From Prevotella sp. (GTDB lineage Bacteria > Bacteroidota > Bacteroidia > Bacteroidales > Bacteroidaceae): a stretch of DNA of 33,272 nt. Positions 16,518 through 33,272 of this stretch are shown one piece after another. The position numbers and the translations under genes are program-made. Numbering within the stretch: the first letter of the stretch is position 1; every line of letters begins with the position of its first letter. Below the pieces are notes generated by a model. The model saw only the letters and a list, made by a program, of their open reading frames with translations. It ran no database searches and was not told the DNA's origin. The stretch covers positions 1 to 33,272 of the forward strand of contig JAFZRU010000033.1 in assembly GCA_017619755.1 (NCBI GenBank), in the 5' to 3' direction.

Positions 16518-16596
16518 GCAATAAAATGAGAAAATAACCGCATTTGGCGGAATAAATTCGACCTTTACGAATGAAAATTTCGAGCTGTAAGAATGG

Positions 16597-16685
16597 ATTT
16601 TGTGCATAGACGGCCTGAAGAGCCAACGAGATACCAGCCCAGGGCAACGCCTTGGGTAAATGACAGAGTAGATTGCGCCGACAGG
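16597..16685. repeat. GCCCAGGGCAACGCC repeat, isolated copy
   Basis: One unit of the family that occurs again at 16849-17005 and three times in tandem at 21798-22137. It carries the block GTGCAwAGACGGCCTG followed by GAGATACCAGCCCAGGGC and a hairpin around CCCAGGGC-AAC-GCCTTGGG. Open frames through it are artefacts of the repeat. Confidence 0.75.
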
Positions 16686-16717
16686 TTTTTGTGCAAAGAC
16701 AGCAGAAGGGCCAAGAG

Positions 16718-16794
16718 GCCGGTGCAGCTGTAGGGGTGGACTTTATGTCCATCCGCTCGCCCGTCAGGGCGAATGTTGTTTGACACATGGCCTC
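16718..16794. repeat. Dispersed palindromic repeat, copy 2
   Basis: Near-identical to 15474-15547 (same core with the GGTGGAC/GTCCATCC hairpin; GCCCGTCAGGGC in place of GCCCGATAGGGC). The two copies flank the phosphoribosyltransferase-like gene as direct repeats about 1.2 kb apart. Confidence 0.75.
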
Positions 16795-16816
16795 GTTAAG
16801 ATTGAACATAATAATA

Positions 16817-17005
16817 TAATTTCGTCCTGTTCGGATGGCTTTTGTGCAAAGACGGCCTGTAAGGCCAGCGAGATACCAGCCCAGGGCAACGCCCTGGGTC
16901 AATAGCGGAGTAGTAAATTGCGCCCTGCAAGGGCAAAAGCATTATGACATTATAACACGAACCGCTTAGCAGGCGGACGCTATCACCAATCAAGCATTAC
17001 TCTCC
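16817..17005. repeat. Long copy of the GCCCAGGGC repeat with tail
   Basis: Contains the repeat unit with a perfect CCCAGGGC-AAC-GCCCTGGG hairpin, then a tail with the GCCCTGCAAGGGC hairpin and the ACGAACCGCTTAGCAGGC block, ending ATCAAGCATTACTCTCC. The same order recurs at 21777-22137. The two copies are direct repeats on either side of the inner cassette array and each is followed by a 100-base element (17008-17107 and 22206-22305). Confidence 0.8.
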
Positions 17006-17007
17006 AT

Positions 17008-17107
17008 AAGAGTGGCTTCGAGCGGTTTTATCTCTACTTTATAATGCTCACATATTGCATCTGACTGCCCCAGTTATTGCACTATCCCGGTATCAAGCTT
17101 CACTCTT
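17008..17107 (-). repeat. Cassette-end element a (100 bp)
   Basis: The ends AAGAGTG and CACTCTT are a perfect 7-base inverted repeat. Next to one end is the core TATCAAGCTT (17091-17100), and next to the other GGCTTCGAGCGGTTTTA. The element begins three bases after the TAA of the gene ending at 17111. Its interior matches element d (22206-22305) closely and differs from b and c. It could be a recombination site, a structured RNA or a processing/terminator element. Confidence 0.85.
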
Positions 17108-17110
17108 CTT

Positions 17111-17578
17111 TTATATGTCTTGTTCTCTAACGCATTTGGCAAGATAATCTATATCGAAATTGTCTGAATAGATGTCGATGTTATTTCGCTCGAAGAAATT
17201 AAAGACTCTTTTACATACATCTTTATACTTAAGAAGTCGATGTTGCTCTTCTGTGGTATATCTTCCACTATGAAGATGAAACATAATAGCTCTATATATC
17301 ATGTCCCATTTTAAATCAAGAATATTATTAGTAGAATCTTTCCTACATTCCATACCTCCATATTTAAGTATTGTATGCGAATTTTCTTCTGCAATACGAC
17401 GACTCTCTATAGATTCACTAAATGAACCTGGATGTAATAACTCTAATATTGCTCCAAATGCTAAAAGAAGCATCGCACCTAAAAAACATGTTACTTTTCC
17501 GAATGTTGTATGGTCTACAATGTAATCAAATATTCTCTCAGACTTTGTAGGAGGGCCTAATAATTCTAAATTTTTCAT
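17111..17578 (-). CDS. Single-pass membrane protein next to the amber-rich gene
   Basis: The product is 155 residues and I do not recognise a family. Residues about 30-48 are a transmembrane segment (CFLGAMLLLAFGAILELL), with a polar N-terminal tail of 29 residues and a largely helical, charged C-terminal part. It starts 5 bases after the TAA of the amber-rich gene (17584) and contains no TAG codon itself. The close spacing, the small size and the membrane segment would suit an immunity or partner protein for the larger neighbour, but this is an inference from layout. The gene ends in TAA directly before element a. Confidence 0.65.
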   Translation of the reverse strand: MKNLELLGPPTKSERIFDYIVDHTTFGKVTCFLGAMLLLAFGAILELLHPGSFSESIESRRIAEENSHTILKYGGMECRKDSTNNILDLKWDMIYRAIMFHLHSGRYTTEEQHRLLKYKDVCKRVFNFFERNNIDIYSDNFDIDYLAKCVREQDI

Positions 17579-17583
17579 TGTGG

Positions 17584-19008
17584 TTATTCCATTAAAGTTT
17601 GACCTAACCCGTATTTTTCTGCATGAGCAGGATCATAAAATAGTCGCCAATTACTATTTTTATCGAGAAGAATACCCTATCTATATGTAAAGGGCTTGTA
17701 TCCAAGAAGCCAACATAAATTGGCTCCTCCAAATTTATCTAACCAAGGAACTTTTGTTTCAGAAGAAACATGTAATATGTGTTTTTTTATCCAGTCTGCT
17801 ACCTAATATTGTGGATTTAACTTTTGTTCATCACGAAATTCCCATACTAATGAACGGGGATTATTTTGTCGAAGTATATAATCACTATGCTCTCCACCCA
17901 CAGAAGTAAGCCAATCTTGTTCATTTATACTCTATCCTTCACTTATTCTACTTAAAACGTCCTTATCTTTCAAACCTGCCATTTCTTCAAAAGGAATCTT
18001 GGTACTTTGTTCAGCATTTTCAATAGCCCCTCTTGTAAATCGATATGTTCCATCAACATTCTTCTAAATAAGAGTTCGAGGAACTTCATTTTCTGGAATA
18101 CCTGCCCAAATTGCTCCATTTTGAAAACGTATTTCGTCGTCATTAAAAAATCCTTGATTTCCATACCATTGTGGTTTTCTTCCATTAAAGAAAGTTGGAG
18201 GTTTAGTATAAAAGGGTTTAGTAAATACATCTTTTAATCTAGCAAAATAGTTGCCATATCCTCTTGGATCAAGATAATTTAACGTATATCTGCCAAGATG
18301 TCCGAAATTGTTGCCTACCCATCCTCCATAGAACATTCCTGGATTTGTCCATACTGACAATTCTGTTGGTAATCCTGTCCAATCTGACACATTGTCAGCC
18401 CATGATTTACCTGTGAATAACCTTGAACCTGTGTTTACAGCTGCGTCGCCTAATGCACCTCCAACAAGACCTGTTCCTAAAACGATAGGTTGAGTGAGTC
18501 CTGCTCCAAGTCCTAATGCTGTTGCTCCAGTTAATCCTACTCTTACATTATCTGCTGCTGTAGGTTTTAATTCATAAGGCATATCTTCTCCAGTCTAATC
18601 TTTCCAAAACTATTCGGGACCATAAGCGTGGTATCCACCAAAAGGATCGACTGCATAATTTAATGGAATTCTCATATACCAAGGATTCCCCTACTTCTTT
18701 TCTTCTTCTTCTCTTTCCTATTTAGCTTTATCTAATTCTACTCTTAAAACATAGTCTTCTATACCTTCTGCGTTTCTATCTAATTCGTCTAATATTCTTC
18801 TTTGTTGCTCTATGCTTTGAGCAGCATTTCCGACTACATCTCTTGGAATTTCCTAATATGGACTTCTTCTTGTAGTTGTTTGAACTGGTTTATTTCTTGT
18901 AGGCATTTCATAAGGGAAAAACATTATTTTACCAGAATCAGTATCAACGGTTGTTATTTTTCCTCTTCCCTATTTTTATTGTTGATGTTTTTCAATTAGT
19001 TTTTTCAT
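17584..19008 (-). CDS. Amber-recoded gene: 474-codon frame with ten in-frame TAG codons
   Basis: Under the standard code this looks like scattered fragments; the largest plain piece is 18064-18582. Reading TAG through gives one frame from the ATG at 19008 to the TAA at 17584-17586. TAG falls at codons 13, 52, 97, 106, 133, 138, 315, 359, 402 and 444. Glutamine is otherwise always CAA (16) and never CAG, and about 14 Trp codons are intact with no TGA. One TAA sits at codon 11, so translation may begin later (ATG at 18924 or 18906), or that codon is a mutation or readthrough site. The protein has a charged N-terminus (KLIEKHQQ), an acidic coiled stretch near 97-105, a Gly/Ala-rich hydrophobic region (about 157-187) and a soluble C-terminal part. 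No family recognised; the style recalls proteins of TAG-recoded gut phages. Confidence 0.75.
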
Positions 19009-19087
19009 AACGTTACCATTATTATTTCTTTCTCTTTTCTTTTGGTACTTTTCTTTTCTCTTTCTTTTTTGGCAAGCTGTTAAAAGA

Positions 19088-19188
19088 AGAGTGGCTTCGA
19101 GCGGTTTTACCTCTACTTCACAGTCTTGGTTTACTGGCTAAGCTCAAGTTAAACTAGTACTTACGTCCCGGTATCAAGCTTCACTCTT
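19088..19188 (-). repeat. Cassette-end element b (101 bp)
   Basis: Same ends (AAGAGTG/CACTCTT), same core TATCAAGCTT (19172-19181) and same GGCTTCGAGCGGTTTTA block as element a, but a different middle (ACAGTCTTGGTTTACT and ACTAGTACTTACGTCCCGG) shared only with element c. It begins two bases after the TAA at 19191. The short Lys-rich stretch at 19028-19087, between this element and the next gene, could be the tail of a lost gene (frame ending PKEKRKK then TAA). Confidence 0.85.
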
Positions 19189-19190
19189 TT

Positions 19191-19898
19191 TTAGATAATT
19201 GATTTTTTACTAATAAGTTTCCCTCCTCTTCTATTTTTAGGAATAGATAAAGATGTTATTCCTAAATTGTATTTTGTTCCAATTAAATCAGAAAGAGGAT
19301 CTTCCATTATATCTCCATGAAAGTTATGTCTTACTACCCATTTATTTCCATTATATACAAGTAGTCCTGTATGAGTTCCTTCGGACCATGAATTTCCTTT
19401 TGACCTAGATTTGTAATCCCAAGGACTTCCAGCATAGTACATGTTTACTACATAAGTTTGTGATTTGTCTAATTGATTGACATTGAACTTTCTTTTAAAG
19501 TTATCAGCAGCATCAAGATTGTAAGAAAAATGGTTTTGATAGTTACTTCCATTTCGATTAGTTTTTGATATTCCTTTATAACCATCAATATAAGGAGTTG
19601 TATAAGTATGATTCCACGCACTTCCTCCTGGAATTTGATTTAATAATCTATTTACATAAACAGCACATTCTGGACTAAAAAATGTTCCTATTTTATGCAT
19701 TTTATATATTTCTTTTCCTCTTCTTTCAGAGTACGAATTATTATTAAACATTGATGTTCTCGGATCTGTTCCAGGATTTGACGGAGCTATCATATCTAAT
19801 ACTCCTAATACTTTTTTACCAGTTTCTATAACAGATCTTCCAATATTTCTAATTGTCTTTCCTATTTGGTGTTTTTGTATTAACTATTTATTCTTCAT
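19191..19898 (-). CDS. Possible NlpC/P60-like cysteine peptidase, amber codon at position 5
   Basis: From the ATG at 19898 the frame gives 235 residues if the TAG at codon 5 is read; otherwise it would have to start at 19793 (200 residues). I prefer the longer one because its N-terminus (LIQKHQIGK) matches the start of the amber-rich gene (LIEKHQQ.K) and the ATG overlaps the upstream gene by 11 bases. A possible catalytic set is Cys78 (PECAVYVNRLL), His176 (GTHTGLLVYNG) and His191/Asn192 (RHNFHG), in the order seen in NlpC/P60-like amidases. The tail NRRGGKLISKKSII is strongly basic. Glutamine codons are CAA (6) and TAG (1), no CAG. Peptidoglycan hydrolysis fits the L,D-transpeptidase-like neighbour but is not shown. 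Confidence 0.6.
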
Positions 19899-20484
19899 AA
19901 TATGCAATTAATTTAGTTTTATCAGAATCGTCTAACATATAATATTTAATTACTTCAAATGTATGATAACTAACAGCAAAACATCCGTTGCTAGTATTGT
20001 TTAATGGGAAATTCACTTTGGGCAGATTGAATGGCAACAGTGTCGCCATTATGCAAGGATGAATGTATATTCCTCTTATTTCGGCATTGGAATTGGTATC
20101 GCTCCATCCCTTGAGTTTGATAGCTTCCATTCCGTTTTTCATCCTTACAAGTCCCTCCAAAGTGAACACACCGAGTGAAGAGCAGTTGCTGCCAATCTCA
20201 TTGCTGAACTCTGGCTTTGAGGGCGTGCTGTTTCCACCCTGTCCATGAAGAACAACTCCAGAATAGACTAAATCTGCATCAAAGTCCAATTTATAAATGA
20301 AAAGTCTATCTTCACAAGATGGTTTTGAGAAGTCAACTGCTATCTCATAAGTATTTTTACTTATATTCTCTTTGATGTATTTTGATCTTTTATGAATCCA
20401 AATCGGCCCCCCTTTGGGAATGCAGTAAGAGAGAACAACACATACCATGAAAAGATAGCCTATACGTTTTATTATTTTTTTCAT
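19888..20484 (-). CDS. L,D-transpeptidase-like lipoprotein (YkuD_2 type)
   Basis: The product is 198 residues. The N-terminal hydrophobic run ends at LSYC (Cys21), a likely lipobox. The middle has VVLHGQGG, then FSNEIGSNCSSLGVF (about residues 93-107), followed by IHPC and SNGCFAV (Cys168). This order is that of the murein L,D-transpeptidase catalytic family found in Bacteroidetes, where the Cys in S.GC is the nucleophile and the paired His lies upstream. It uses CAG for glutamine and no TAG, and its base composition is closer to the host genes, unlike its downstream neighbour. It has its own promoter at 20506-20536. Likely an envelope peptidoglycan-modifying or related protein. Confidence 0.8.
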   Translation of the reverse strand: MKKIIKRIGYLFMVCVVLSYCIPKGGPIWIHKRSKYIKENISKNTYEIAVDFSKPSCEDRLFIYKLDFDADLVYSGVVLHGQGGNSTPSKPEFSNEIGSNCSSLGVFTLEGLVRMKNGMEAIKLKGWSDTNSNAEIRGIYIHPCIMATLLPFNLPKVNFPLNNTSNGCFAVSYHTFEVIKYYMLDDSDKTKLIAYYEE

Positions 20485-20536: not shown

Positions 20537-20581
20537 GAAAAAGCAATGACTTTGTATCAAACCTCCTATTTAGTGTATGAG

Positions 20582-20677
20582 AAGAGTGGCTTCGAGCGGT
20601 TTTATCTCTACCTCAAAGTCTTGGTTTACTACTCAAGTTAAACTAGTACTTACGTCCCGGTATCAAGCTTCACTCTT
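20582..20677 (-). repeat. Cassette-end element c (96 bp)
   Basis: Same ends AAGAGTG/CACTCTT and core TATCAAGCTT (20661-20670); the middle matches element b (TCTTGGTTTACT, ACTAGTACTTACGTCCCGG) apart from a short gap. Unlike a, b and d, it is not directly after a stop codon; the diverged structured stretch 20679-20881 separates it from the gene ending at 20882. Confidence 0.85.
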
Positions 20678-20678
20678 T

Positions 20679-20881
20679 ATATTGGTTGATTAATTGGCTC
20701 AACCGTAAGCCTCGATAGATATAAACCTGGTTGCAACTAACTACTTTATTGGCTTCATAGGATTCGAACCTAAATCTACCAGCTACCCAGTAGGATTAAC
20801 CATTTATACATCAGCTACTAATTTCGTCAGGTTTATATTTGGGTGTACGACAGATTATCTTGGTATCATGCTTCACTTCAT
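20679..20881 (-). other. Non-coding structured stretch with tRNA-like T-arm and diverged element e
   Basis: Just after the stop at 20882 the plus strand has TATCATGCTT (20864-20873) followed by CACTTCA, a diverged form of the cassette-end core. Further on, an 11-base perfect inverted repeat (20719-20729 and 20828-20838, ATATAAACCTG/CAGGTTTATAT) encloses a segment that, on the minus strand, contains TTAGG-TTCGAAT-CCTAT, a typical tRNA T-arm. A weak D-arm (GATG...AATC) and anticodon-like arm (CTACT...GGTAG) can be drawn upstream, but the loop has eight bases and no acceptor stem closes. I see no protein-coding frame. Confidence 0.45.
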
Positions 20882-21244
20882 TTATATAAGGAACAGAAGC
20901 ACTGCATATATAAGCAATGGCAATGCGACGCAGATGATGACAGATGCTTTCCAGTAGTCCCATCCTATTCTCTTAAAGGAGAAAAGGTATTCCTGAGACA
21001 GCCTGAACGCCTTATCGCACCATTGCCTGAAGAATTTCCGCTTTGTCCAAAATATGTATATCCACAGAATACTCCATAATGGAGTAAAGACTGGGAATCG
21101 GACAATGATGTCGAGCATGACACACCATGACATAGGAATAATGAGATAATAGACAATGATATTGACCTCATTGTATGTCAGGTGTGTCCATTTGGCTACT
21201 TTGAGAAGTGCCGTAGCTACTGAATTAAAGATGGAATTGATCAT
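20882..21244 (-). CDS. Small membrane protein with two or more transmembrane segments
   Basis: The product is 120 residues, not recognised. Hydrophobic segments lie at about residues 28-48 (NIIVYYLIIPMSWCVMLDII), around 53-67 (VFTPLWSILWIYIFW) and at the C-terminus (ASVIICVALPLLIYAVLLFLI). A short basic loop rich in Arg and Lys separates the last two. The start overlaps the previous gene as ATGA (21241-21244), which points to coupled translation of the two. Its stop (TAA) is followed at once by the diverged element e. Small membrane proteins in arrays like this are often immunity proteins, but nothing here proves it. Confidence 0.65.
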   Translation of the reverse strand: MINSIFNSVATALLKVAKWTHLTYNEVNIIVYYLIIPMSWCVMLDIIVRFPVFTPLWSILWIYIFWTKRKFFRQWCDKAFRLSQEYLFSFKRIGWDYWKASVIICVALPLLIYAVLLFLI

Positions 21245-21776: not shown

Positions 21777-22137
21777 TTAATTCGTCCTGCGGATGGTTTT
21801 TGTGCAAAGACGGCCTGCAAGGCCAACGAGATACTAGCCCAGGGCAACGCCTTGGGTAAATAACGGAGTAGATTGCGCCTACAGGATTCTGTGCAAAGAC
21901 GGCCTGCAAGGCCTACGAGATGCCAGCCCAGGGCAACGCCTTGGGAAAATAGCGGAGTAGTGCGCCGACAGGATTTTGTGCAAAGACGGCCTGCAAGGCC
22001 AACGAGATACCAGCCCAGGGCAACGCCTTGGGTAAATGATGGAGTTGATTACGCCCTGCAAGGGCAAAAGCATTATGACATCTATCACACGAACCGCTTA
22101 GCAGGCTGACGCTATCACCAATCAAGCATTACTCTCC
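21777..22137. repeat. Three tandem GCCCAGGGC units plus tail
   Basis: Three units of about 86-90 bases stand in a row (from about 21798, 21888 and 21974), each with GTGCAAAGACGGCCTGCAAGG and the CCCAGGGCAACGCCTTGGG hairpin. The last is followed by the tail with GCCCTGCAAGGGC and ACGAACCGCTTAGCAGGC, as at 16817-17005. The units are adjacent without spacers, so this is not a CRISPR array. Confidence 0.85.
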
Positions 22138-22205
22138 CTACGCATAGCTCGATATATGTCAAGATACACCGAGCTATGAAACTCAATCTATTTATAGATG
22201 AGCAA
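22138..22205. other. 68-base spacer with two hairpins, only in this copy
   Basis: This piece separates the repeat tail from element d; at the other copy (17006-17007) the two are nearly joined. It holds a 9-base inverted repeat, CATAGCTCG (22143-22151) with CGAGCTATG (22170-22178), and ATCTAT-TT-ATAGAT (22186-22199). It is either an insertion here or a deletion at the other end. Confidence 0.55.
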
Positions 22206-22305
22206 AAGAGTGGCTTCGAGCGGTTTTATCTCTACTTTATAATGCTCACATATTGCATCTGACTGCCCCAGTTATTGTATTATCCCGGTTTCAAGCTTCA
22301 CTCTT
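22206..22305 (-). repeat. Cassette-end element d (100 bp)
   Basis: Ends AAGAGTG and CACTCTT; core TTTCAAGCTT (22289-22298), one base different from the other copies. The interior (ATAATGCTCACATATTGCAT, CTGACTGCCCCAGTTATTG) is nearly identical to element a and unlike b and c. It begins three bases after the TGA of the 50-residue frame ending at 22309. Confidence 0.85.
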
Positions 22306-22308
22306 TTA

Positions 22309-22461
22309 TCATTTGTTTCTAAGACCTTTAACAAGATAAGCCATTGATATGGCTTCTTCCTTTAAGATAGGATTAGTCTTACATTCTTGAAGGAAGTTTT
22401 GTTCTTCCTCCGATGACATTCTTCCAAGAAGATAGTCGTCGATGATGTCTTCGTATTGCAT
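22309..22461 (-). CDS. 50-residue protein resembling an anti-sigma-type N-terminal segment
   Basis: Starts at the ATG overlapping the stop of the upstream frame (TAATG at 22459-22463) and ends in TGA. The sequence (MQYEDIIDDYLLGRMSSEEE, then a helix with NPILKEEA) resembles the short cytoplasmic start of Bacteroidales anti-sigma or TPR membrane proteins, which have the pattern Y..I..YL.G.Ms..E...F, but the protein stops where a transmembrane segment would be expected. It may be a stand-alone regulator or a truncated gene. The TAATG junction suggests coupled translation with the upstream gene. Confidence 0.55.
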   Translation of the reverse strand: MQYEDIIDDYLLGRMSSEEEQNFLQECKTNPILKEEAISMAYLVKGLRNK

Positions 22462-22700
22462 TATTCTATTGGTGTCCATAATATATTTCGTGAAAAATCA
22501 AAAAGTGTATTAAAATTATCATCATCTTCAGGAAAATTTCCTAAGTAACAATGATAATACTTGTCTATAATATCAATAGATTCTCCAGGATCACCTTTTG
22601 AATTGTAAAGCATAACTAATGTTTCAGTTACAGCTTCTTCTGCACTTAATATATAATAATAATCTTGATGAAGTTCTGGATGTTTTGCAAGTTCTTCCAT
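22461..22700 (-). CDS. Small acidic hypothetical protein, start uncertain
   Basis: From the ATG at 22700 the product is 79 residues, rich in Asp, Glu and Tyr (HQDYYYILSAEEAVTETLVM, ESIDIIDKYYHCYLG), with no recognised family. The same frame carries protein-like sequence further upstream (GRSDIIIANPLKI, VCKSFFKKD) but without an ATG and with a TAA near 22779. An ATG at 22771 in another frame reaches this frame if a -1 shift occurs at A AAA AAG (22742-22748), giving about 104 residues. It ends in TAA, overlapping the next ATG. Confidence 0.5.
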   Translation of the reverse strand: MEELAKHPELHQDYYYILSAEEAVTETLVMLYNSKGDPGESIDIIDKYYHCYLGNFPEDDDNFNTLFDFSRNILWTPIE

Positions 22701-22829: not shown

Positions 22830-22979
22830 TTATTTGTTTTTTATCAATCTTTTTAACATTTTTCCTCCTTTTTTCAAAACTGGCCTAACTCCATTTGCTT
22901 GAAAAGTAACCATTCTATCAAATGGATTTGGTCCAACGCTACTTATACTGCAAACATTTTTAAAAGTTGAAGACGAATA
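22830..22979 (-). pseudogene. C-terminal remnant of a cassette gene
   Basis: A frame open from the TGA at 22980-22982 to the TAA at 22830 reads as a protein tail: SSVGPNPFDRMVTFQANGV, then KKGGKMLKRLIKNK. The basic GGK-containing end resembles that of the peptidase-like gene (RRGGKLISKKSII). The 5' boundary coincides with the core AAGCTTGATA (22978-22987), as if the front part of the gene had been replaced by recombination at that core. Confidence 0.5.
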
Positions 22980-32329: not shown

Positions 32330-32426
32330 CTTTAAAGTCTTTAAAGACCTTAATGACCTTAAAGTCCCTAAAGACCTTAGCGACCTTAAACCCTTAAACT
32401 CCTTAAACCTTTAAACCCTTAACCCC
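32330..32426. repeat. Degenerate short-period repeat rich in CCTTAAA
   Basis: About 95 bases consist of variants of a 7-9 base unit (ACCTTAAA, ACCCTTAAA, CTTTAAAG), with roughly a dozen repeats. It stands between the stop of the porin-like gene and the PL11 promoter on the same strand. Such heptad-like stretches occur between genes in many Bacteroidales; their function is unknown. They could act as a weak terminator, a slippage-prone spacer or a protein-binding array. Confidence 0.7.
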
Positions 32427-32427
32427 T

Positions 32428-33272
32428 TCAATTGAAAAAATTCCACGACAGTCCGAAGCGGAAGATGCGCTCGTTGATGGGATAGTGAGGAGTGATGAAA
32501 TAGTTGCCACCTTCGGCTGAGTGGTTGACATGGCTGAGCATGACGAAGAAGCGGGTGTGCTTGAGGAAGAAATTGGCATAGAGATTGGCTACAGCAATGT
32601 TGCCGATATCTACACGGCTGTCGGCATTTTCCTGCACGGCATACTGACCAATGCCCGGCACGTAGTCGGGGGCGTGGTATTTGGTGAAATACCGCACGTC
32701 GGCTCCCAAGTCGCAGTCCAGCACGTGGGCGATTTTGAAGCGAAGGAAGGCGTTGACGTAGGCGTTGAAGTCCGGGACGGGGATGATGTCGTCCTTGCTC
32801 GACTTCTGATAGGTGAGTTGCGCGTCAAGGTTGACGAGCCCAAAGCGAAGCTGTTGGCCCAAGGTGGCGGTGAGCAAGCTGATGTTGTCGCCGCATTGAC
32901 GGACTGATGCCTTGTTGCGCAGGCGGTAAACGTTGTCGCCGTTGACCTCCACGTCGTAGCTGGTGCCGAAATAGGTGTAGTTGCTCAGGTTGTCAAAGGC
33001 CACGCGCAGGCGTGTGCCGGTGCGCCGAAGGGAGAACGTGCCTTGAATCTTCGTGTGGGTGATTTTGTCTAAGTCGTCGTTGTCCCACCAGAAATGCTTG
33101 GAATGGTAATGTTCGTGATAGAACGTGGGGTCGTTGAGGTGGAAGAAACCGTTGGCGGCCAGTTGGATGGTGTCGCCCCACAGGCGGAAATTGAGGTCTG
33201 CCTCGCCGTCGATGTTCACATCGCCTATTCGGGCGCCGGCTACCTCCACCTCGCCGGTGACGTTGTAGTGAA
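32428..33272 (-). CDS. Putative porin (Porin_10-like), 5' end beyond the window
   Basis: The visible 281 codons are the C-terminal part of a beta-barrel: alternating strands, turns with Asn/Asp/Gly (NDDLDKITHTKIQGTFSLRR, YDVEVNGDNVYRL), and a final aromatic-ended strand (FRFGLSWNFFN). The pattern matches the putative porin family common in Bacteroidetes. The frame stays open through the right edge of the window, so the start is not seen; the GTG at 33249 is not the real start. It ends in TGA followed by the CCTTAAA repeats. A relation to the pectin genes is possible but not shown. Confidence 0.7.
   Translation of the reverse strand, partial: HYNVTGEVEVAGARIGDVNIDGEADLNFRLWGDTIQLAANGFFHLNDPTFYHEHYHSKHFWWDNDDLDKITHTKIQGTFSLRRTGTRLRVAFDNLSNYTYFGTSYDVEVNGDNVYRLRNKASVRQCGDNISLLTATLGQQLRFGLVNLDAQLTYQKSSKDDIIPVPDFNAYVNAFLRFKIAHVLDCDLGADVRYFTKYHAPDYVPGIGQYAVQENADSRVDIGNIAVANLYANFFLKHTRFFVMLSHVNHSAEGGNYFITPHYPINERIFRFGLSWNFFN

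Follow-up and report, generated by a model that had tools for sequence, protein, structure and literature searches.

A probable late gene of a TAG=Gln crAss-like phage stranded in a standard-code Prevotella-type chromosome

The stretch of DNA analysed here (the window: 33,272 nt of contig JAFZRU010000033.1, Prevotella sp. assembly GCA_017619755.1) carries on its minus strand a gene (19008–17584) that, one TAA apart, stays open over 474 codons if TAG is taken as a sense codon, probably for glutamine. The initial annotation had pointed to this gene with correct coordinates and without a strand, and our recount agrees with its figures: ahead of the terminal TAA there are ten TAG (codons 13, 52, 97, 106, 133, 138, 315, 359, 402 and 444), a single TAA (codon 11), no TGA, 16 CAA, no CAG and 14 TGG, and the terminal stop lies 5 nt ahead of the next ATG (position 17578), with which a 155-aa ORF begins. 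Both contexts that it quoted (YGPE-TAG-FWKD-TAG-TGED and NPQY-TAG-VADW) are present as cited. The residues that follow the codon-11 TAA are referred to below as P0002.

The remaining five frames of 17584–19008 hold 18 to 41 stops each (TAA and TGA together 9 to 35), and in 5000 dinucleotide-preserving shuffles of the stretch the mean numbers of stops were 15.3 for TAA, 8.8 for TAG and 11.4 for TGA, with one or fewer TAA plus TGA in none (0/5000). TAG thus stands at the number that chance would give, whereas there is hardly any TAA or TGA, and this is the pattern expected of a reassigned TAG. An ordinary pseudogene of a standard-code gene, struck by stops at random, would suit the one TAA and the standard code of the host; nevertheless ten TAG beside no TGA and one TAA, the outcome of the shuffles, and the phage relatives with the same pattern in long late-type frames (see below) leave this explanation practically no probability. 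The codon usage of the gene is phage-like, its distance being 0.74 to 42 TAG-rich phage ORFs as against 3.17 to the 13 host ORFs of the window. For the TAA at codon 11, decay after transfer is the preferred explanation, the alternative being a sequencing error.

The gene lies in an island of low GC content (30–41% at 17–23 kb, the flanks being mostly 50–60%), all the features of which described here are on the minus strand and in which a structured element, described below, recurs four times as a repeat of about 105 bp between genes. On the 3' side of the recoded gene is the 155-aa ORF (17111–17578; no family match); element copy 1 (17006–17110; 94.9 bits) begins a few nucleotides past its stop and is followed directly by the 5' half of a tRNA-Ser(GCT)-like gene (16955–17005, ends approximate), which matches a tRNA-Ser in another assembly (L018:356–443) and runs out into host repeat DNA. 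Upstream of the recoded gene, element copy 2 (19085–19191; 90.0 bits) lies directly behind P0001 (19191–19898), a 235-aa frame matching no family and containing one in-frame TAG at codon 5 (MKNK-TAG-LIQKHQIGKT). Under the standard code P0001 can still be read over 200 aa from an internal ATG (19793), but its phage-like N-terminus requires TAG as sense. Next comes a gene of the YkuD_2 L,D-transpeptidase family (19888–20484; Pfam PF13645, E 1.2e-21), related to a gene of the phage record G151 (L023; 47% identity, E 2e-33) that adjoins a TAG-rich ORF with a LysM domain. Beyond element copy 3 (20580–20680; 87.7 bits), a degenerate 5' half of the element with a tRNA-like T-arm remnant (20700–20880, approximate) can be made out by eye, unmatched by our element model (R1) or by ARAGORN, and it is followed by a 120-aa ORF (20882–21244) whose relative in the phage record G150 (L034; 48% over 106 aa, E 9e-30) likewise adjoins TAG-rich ORFs.

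At the far end of the island a second 5' half of the tRNA-Ser-like gene (22089–22136, ends approximate) follows element copy 4 (22204–22308; 97.0 bits) after about 67 nt and again leads into host repeat DNA, and the only long matches of this half-gene in its own genome are these two places (16955–17005 and 22069–22136). Copy 4 adjoins a 56-aa gene (22309–22479) with relatives in the phage record G152 (60% over 48 aa, E 3e-14) and in the Prevotellaceae MAG contig L018 (76% over 49 aa, E 7e-22). Then follow a 79-aa ORF (22461–22700), probably decayed, from which protein-like sequence goes on upstream across an in-frame stop, and what is probably a C-terminal piece of another late-type protein (22839–22945; ..RPVLKKGGKMLKRLIK), a similar C-terminus being found, by eye, beside a cassette in the genome G063. 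The eight further minus-strand ORFs that we assigned to the phage part (three through a phage relative, the rest by position) stop at TAA (six) or TGA (two). P0001, the 155-aa ORF and the other small ORFs of the island had no match in the phage stretches at E 0.01. Units of a host-type repeat (111-nt family) flank the phage part at 16593–16945 and 21793–22079, and the last 18–19 bases of the host repeat recur at 12 other places of the same genome (95% identity, E 1.4 each). Elsewhere in the window, minisatellite arrays (units of 8–9 and 17–18 bp; 32332–32428) lie beside a long minus-strand gene.

The window is part of a 106,685-bp contig with host-like GC content and syntenic host genes, and is not carried on a phage genome. 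TAG is a regular stop there: in the rest of the contig 40 long ORFs end with TAG (12), TGA (18) or TAA (10), and within the window two of the 13 host ORFs stop at TAG. The host-type ORF 24589–23672 ends in TAG. Together with flanking host genes that are colinear in an island-free relative, this upholds the view in the initial annotation that the gene sits in a standard-code chromosome whose neighbouring genes use TAG as a stop. Two pattern searches for an amber-suppressor tRNA, in a genome that is 86% complete and with patterns that are not exhaustive, gave 2 and 5 places (one shared), and ARAGORN recognized a CTA tRNA at none of the seven loci inspected.

The island-free relative, G403, in which a 766-aa neighbour is 87% identical, has the flanks of the island colinear and about 2.9 kb apart versus about 10.2 kb in the window, and the element was not found at this locus. 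The 2.9 kb between the flanks in G403 does not match window DNA and so does not provide an exact empty site; G019 has a single host gene in common with the edge of the island, and G197, G193 and G045 were unhelpful in this respect. Two other MAGs have a phage-type gene and the element beside host-like DNA. In G063 (L017, a 96,831-bp contig) a single cassette (L057:1690–2940, ends approximate) within a Prevotella-type chromosome consists of a C-terminal piece, which we take for a late-type protein remnant, an ADP-ribosylglycohydrolase gene (PF03747) and the element, after which host DNA resumes. The host genes around this cassette are neighbours without it in G209; an exact junction was not found, and in G049 and three more distant genomes the examined stretch held the left gene only. 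In L018 the order is the 56-aa gene, then the element, then a tRNA-Ser.

These observations bear on whether assembly or binning could have spliced part of a code-15 phage contig into the interior of a bacterial one. The genome is a 67-contig assembly, the fall in GC coincides with the island, and repeats (host units and element copies) lie at both of its sides, where short-read assemblies err; L018 is itself a contig of 5,040 bp that starts inside the phage-type part. A chimera must, however, have landed between two host genes that are near neighbours in G403, and the same association of phage-type gene, element and host-like DNA is seen also in G063 and in L018, the latter with the same arrangement of element and tRNA-Ser. 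Considering, moreover, that a truncated tRNA and pieces of genes are unexpected in a working phage genome, we judge such an artefact very unlikely.

The phage relatives that carry the argument were reached through the DNA element, three protein-based scans of viral contigs having returned none. Nothing useful was found for the recoded protein in PHROGs, Pfam or PADLOC; a sequence search of the PDB gave best E-values of 0.25 (query A2) and 0.75 (P0001); tblastn against named phages gave two matches for P0002 (E 0.2 and 0.3), one for P0001 (E 0.1) and, at 1e-5, none for the YkuD protein. An 18-base piece of the element is present in eight IMG/VR contigs, and each of the eight has a bipartite site in which a left and a right conserved box enclose a variable middle. 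Six of the right boxes are exact; that of L011 is altered at one base and that of L008 at several. A search of the whole records (up to three mismatches) found one copy in each (8/8).

TAG-rich long ORFs occur in four of these eight records (G150, G151, G152 and G155), and no convincing one was seen in the examined parts of G153, G154, G156 and G157. The stretches L019–L035 contain 42 frames that are 300 aa or longer and have at least four in-frame TAG, and their Gln-type codons are TAG 632, CAA 805 and CAG 76. ARAGORN, applied to all eight records (to parts of G150, G153, G154 and G157), recognized tRNAs with a CTA anticodon (labelled Pyl) in four of the eight records, namely G151, G152, G155 and G157, the last of these though its examined part shows no convincing TAG-rich ORF. 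A tRNA with the anticodon TTA, of the ochre suppressor type, lies in G154 (L037:12135–12209), of which the 20 kb examined are free of a convincing TAG-rich late ORF. Read with TAG as Gln, the terminase and portal proteins of G151, both from TAG-rich frames, match PHROGs 6681 and 6547. The portal matches 17 records of the phage collection, and among the 12 listed three unannotated human faecal scaffolds are 52–60% identical and the named phages 22–28%; since the named matches include cr108_1, placed by taxonomy in the Crassvirales, the element-bearing phages appear to be crAss-like or near relatives of that group.

One direct relative of the recoded gene was found, in G152 (L007:6803–8182; 44% over 71 aa to P0002, E 6e-11), which has 11 in-frame TAG, 8 CAA and no CAG; the similarity is short, and the aligned block (residues 148–218 of P0002) spans none of the TAG codons of the recoded gene. 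Its product (P0003) in turn matches the human faecal phage MT835539.1 (E 4e-10), in which the corresponding frame has 10 in-frame TAG. That public record, which has no annotation, shows over L084:446–7480 a run of frames with several in-frame TAG each, the P0003 homologue among them. With the relative in G152 and three other island genes that have relatives in element-bearing phages, the phage derivation suspected in the initial annotation is supported.

What TAG stands for in these phages was approached by comparing frames between the element-bearing records and MT835539.1 (BLASTP, E 1e-20, identity at least 35%). Opposite in-frame TAG, 400 alignment cells held TAG in 110 (TAG–TAG cells being counted from both sides), Gln in 95, Glu in 34 and Lys in 20, the remaining 141 being other residues or gaps, so that TAG or Gln accounts for 205 of the 400 and nearly half are other residues or a gap; Gln is by far the commonest residue. 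These alignments, with the CTA tRNAs of four of the eight records, indicate that TAG specifies Gln in the element-bearing phages, in line with the glutamine reading of the initial annotation, and this agrees with the code described for crAss-like phages in PMC7886860 and PMC9523058.

The newest part of the find is the structured element itself. It is 75–120 bp long; on the sense strand AAGAGTG, two bulged A and GCTT form one end and AAGC and CACTCTT the other, and between them a variable stem is enclosed by two conserved strands; 44 positions are invariant and seven nearly so across 15 copies, several of which lie behind unrelated genes. Over these 15 sites 93.3% of the cells pair, versus 37–54% in slid controls, and 6 of 16 pairs have changed on both sides (four of five in the inner stem and two of 11 in the outer, where nine pairs never vary). 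For the inner stem 80% of cells are paired, a value favoured over slid versions because the register of this stem had been selected as the best among 12 offsets. Folding of the four window copies as single-strand DNA gave z-scores of −0.46 to −2.07 over both strands; since these energies are unsupportive, the structural case rests on covariation. In ten of the 15 copies the start lies between −25 and +10 nt from the stop of an ORF on the same strand (50 aa or longer), compared with 8% of random positions, and two copies directly precede a tRNA gene (in G154 and L018).

Among 84,980 species genomes a 21-base piece of the element occurs in three assemblies, a Bacteroidaceae MAG from horse faeces (L016), a Prevotella MAG from water-buffalo rumen (L017) and the Prevotellaceae MAG of L018, and with a covariance model the element was detected in two of 299 genomes of the genus, the present one (four copies) and G063 (one). 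The copy in L016 (6132–6211; 42% GC) has paired changes in the outer stem and lies about 3 kb from a gene that, by eye, is serine-recombinase-like. No further copies were found on the rest of the contig (C45), none in named phages (queried with the L007 copy) and none in plasmids (queried with a window copy); Rfam 15 gave no match at the gathering threshold, and weak ones, some overlapping copies, at loose E-values. Within the island the copies at 17006 and 22204 are 93% alike and those at 19085 and 20580 are 94% alike, with 76% between the pairs, which fits duplication. Three candidate identities of the element, namely tRNA, known ribozyme and integron attC site, were each set aside by inspection.

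Cassettes of integrons consist of an ORF followed directly by attC, an imperfect inverted repeat that has a two-base bulge and a central stem of variable sequence, and such units are co-oriented; the attC core is GTTRRRY/RYYYAAC. The island shares with them the ORF with its imperfect inverted repeat, the two-base bulge, the variable middle stem and the single orientation, but the terminal boxes of our element are AAGAGTG/CACTCTT, alignment and inspection of the copies reveal no attC core, and each phage record has a single copy. Phage morons are accessory genes with a hairpin directly 3' of the stop, a placement common to both, whereas the conservation of the element (44 plus 7 positions) exceeds what a terminator needs. 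Most likely, we suggest, the element forms the structured 3' end of an RNA, or a terminator, and in addition offers homology for module exchange; second in likelihood would be a recombination or insertion tag. A more far-reaching proposal, which we consider rather doubtful, is that it represents a new mobile 3' tag (attC-like, or the 3' end of a retro-inserted transcript) that moves single phage genes, each as a cassette with its element, from code-15 phages to Prevotella-type chromosomes or back, across the change of code; in the boldest form of this proposal the chromosomal arrays would be code-locked genes, readable only upon infection by a suppressor-bearing phage.

A related possibility is that the host, or a phage satellite, keeps the island as a weapon or for exploitation, its genes being translated only when a code-15 phage supplies the suppressor tRNA. 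The otherwise intact frame of 474 codons, the intactness of P0001 apart from its TAG, the presence of a peptidoglycan-type gene and the CTA tRNAs encoded by related phages would all be in keeping with this. A CTA tRNA would not, however, read the TAA at codon 11; the neighbouring genes are decayed and the tRNA genes are halves; PADLOC gave no match for the three proteins tested; and neither an integrase nor a replication gene was recognized in the 10 ORFs tested from the island and its edge. The head, tail and packaging genes of an intact prophage were likewise not seen among these 10, no PHROG match being better than E 0.02. We accordingly grant such a code-gated function little probability.

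Taking the evidence together, we propose, with a probability of roughly 0.85, that the gene at 19008–17584 originated as a late gene in a crAss-like phage with TAG=Gln and became stranded in a standard-code Prevotella-type chromosome, most likely as a silent and decaying insertion. Within the phage, early translation would halt at TAG, and once the phage CTA tRNA had been made the late TAG-containing genes would be read through with Gln, a scheme published for such phages and suggested here by the tRNAs and alignments. After a transfer that presumably ran from phage to host, the gene would now stand among other phage genes in an array separated by the phage element, with the tRNA-Ser halves at two places, and in the bacterium its translation would end at codon 11. 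Since the host uses TAG as a stop and no suppressor was found, the gene should be silent. The codon-11 TAA, the stop above 22700–22461, the tRNA halves and the late-protein remnants point to decay without selection; several ORFs of the island are intact, so that decay has not been uniform. As to the product, a virion- or lysis-linked role may be proposed because, in the phages, relatives of the neighbouring island genes adjoin TAG-rich ORFs, one with a LysM domain. Considering that the island has four element copies and each phage record one, it cannot simply be a piece of one such phage, and several captures or a duplication must be assumed.

The code-15 crAss-like phages described in PMC7886860 and PMC9523058 have in common with the present case the use of TAG as Gln mostly in late genes, suppressor tRNAs of the CTA type and a portal of the Crassvirales type; the present gene differs in that it is found apart from the phage, inside a bacterial chromosome, shows signs of decay and is accompanied by four copies of the element. 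Integration has already been considered, PMC7886860 noting that some matches between phage and Bacteroidetes sequences might stem from integrated crAss-like prophages. The Zeta crAss-like phages similarly have suppressor tRNAs within large tRNA sets and recoded genes (PMC12386605), but the passages concerned mention no chromosomal copies, and the word ‘prophage’ occurs 0 times in the main text of that report. In the titles and opening lines of abstracts that our literature searches listed, we found no code-15 gene described from a chromosome with the standard code.

The locus would thus represent gene flow across a genetic-code barrier, from a phage that reads TAG as Gln into a standard-code chromosome, caught before decay past recognition; annotation under the standard code hides such recoded genes. 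It would also tie the recoded phage group to a Prevotella-type host, the present genome and G063 belonging to the same genus. Beyond the gene itself, a structured element without an Rfam match is found in phages and in their presumed hosts alike, often directly behind the stops of unrelated genes, and, if this element moves genes, it would constitute a new mechanism of exchange between phage and host.
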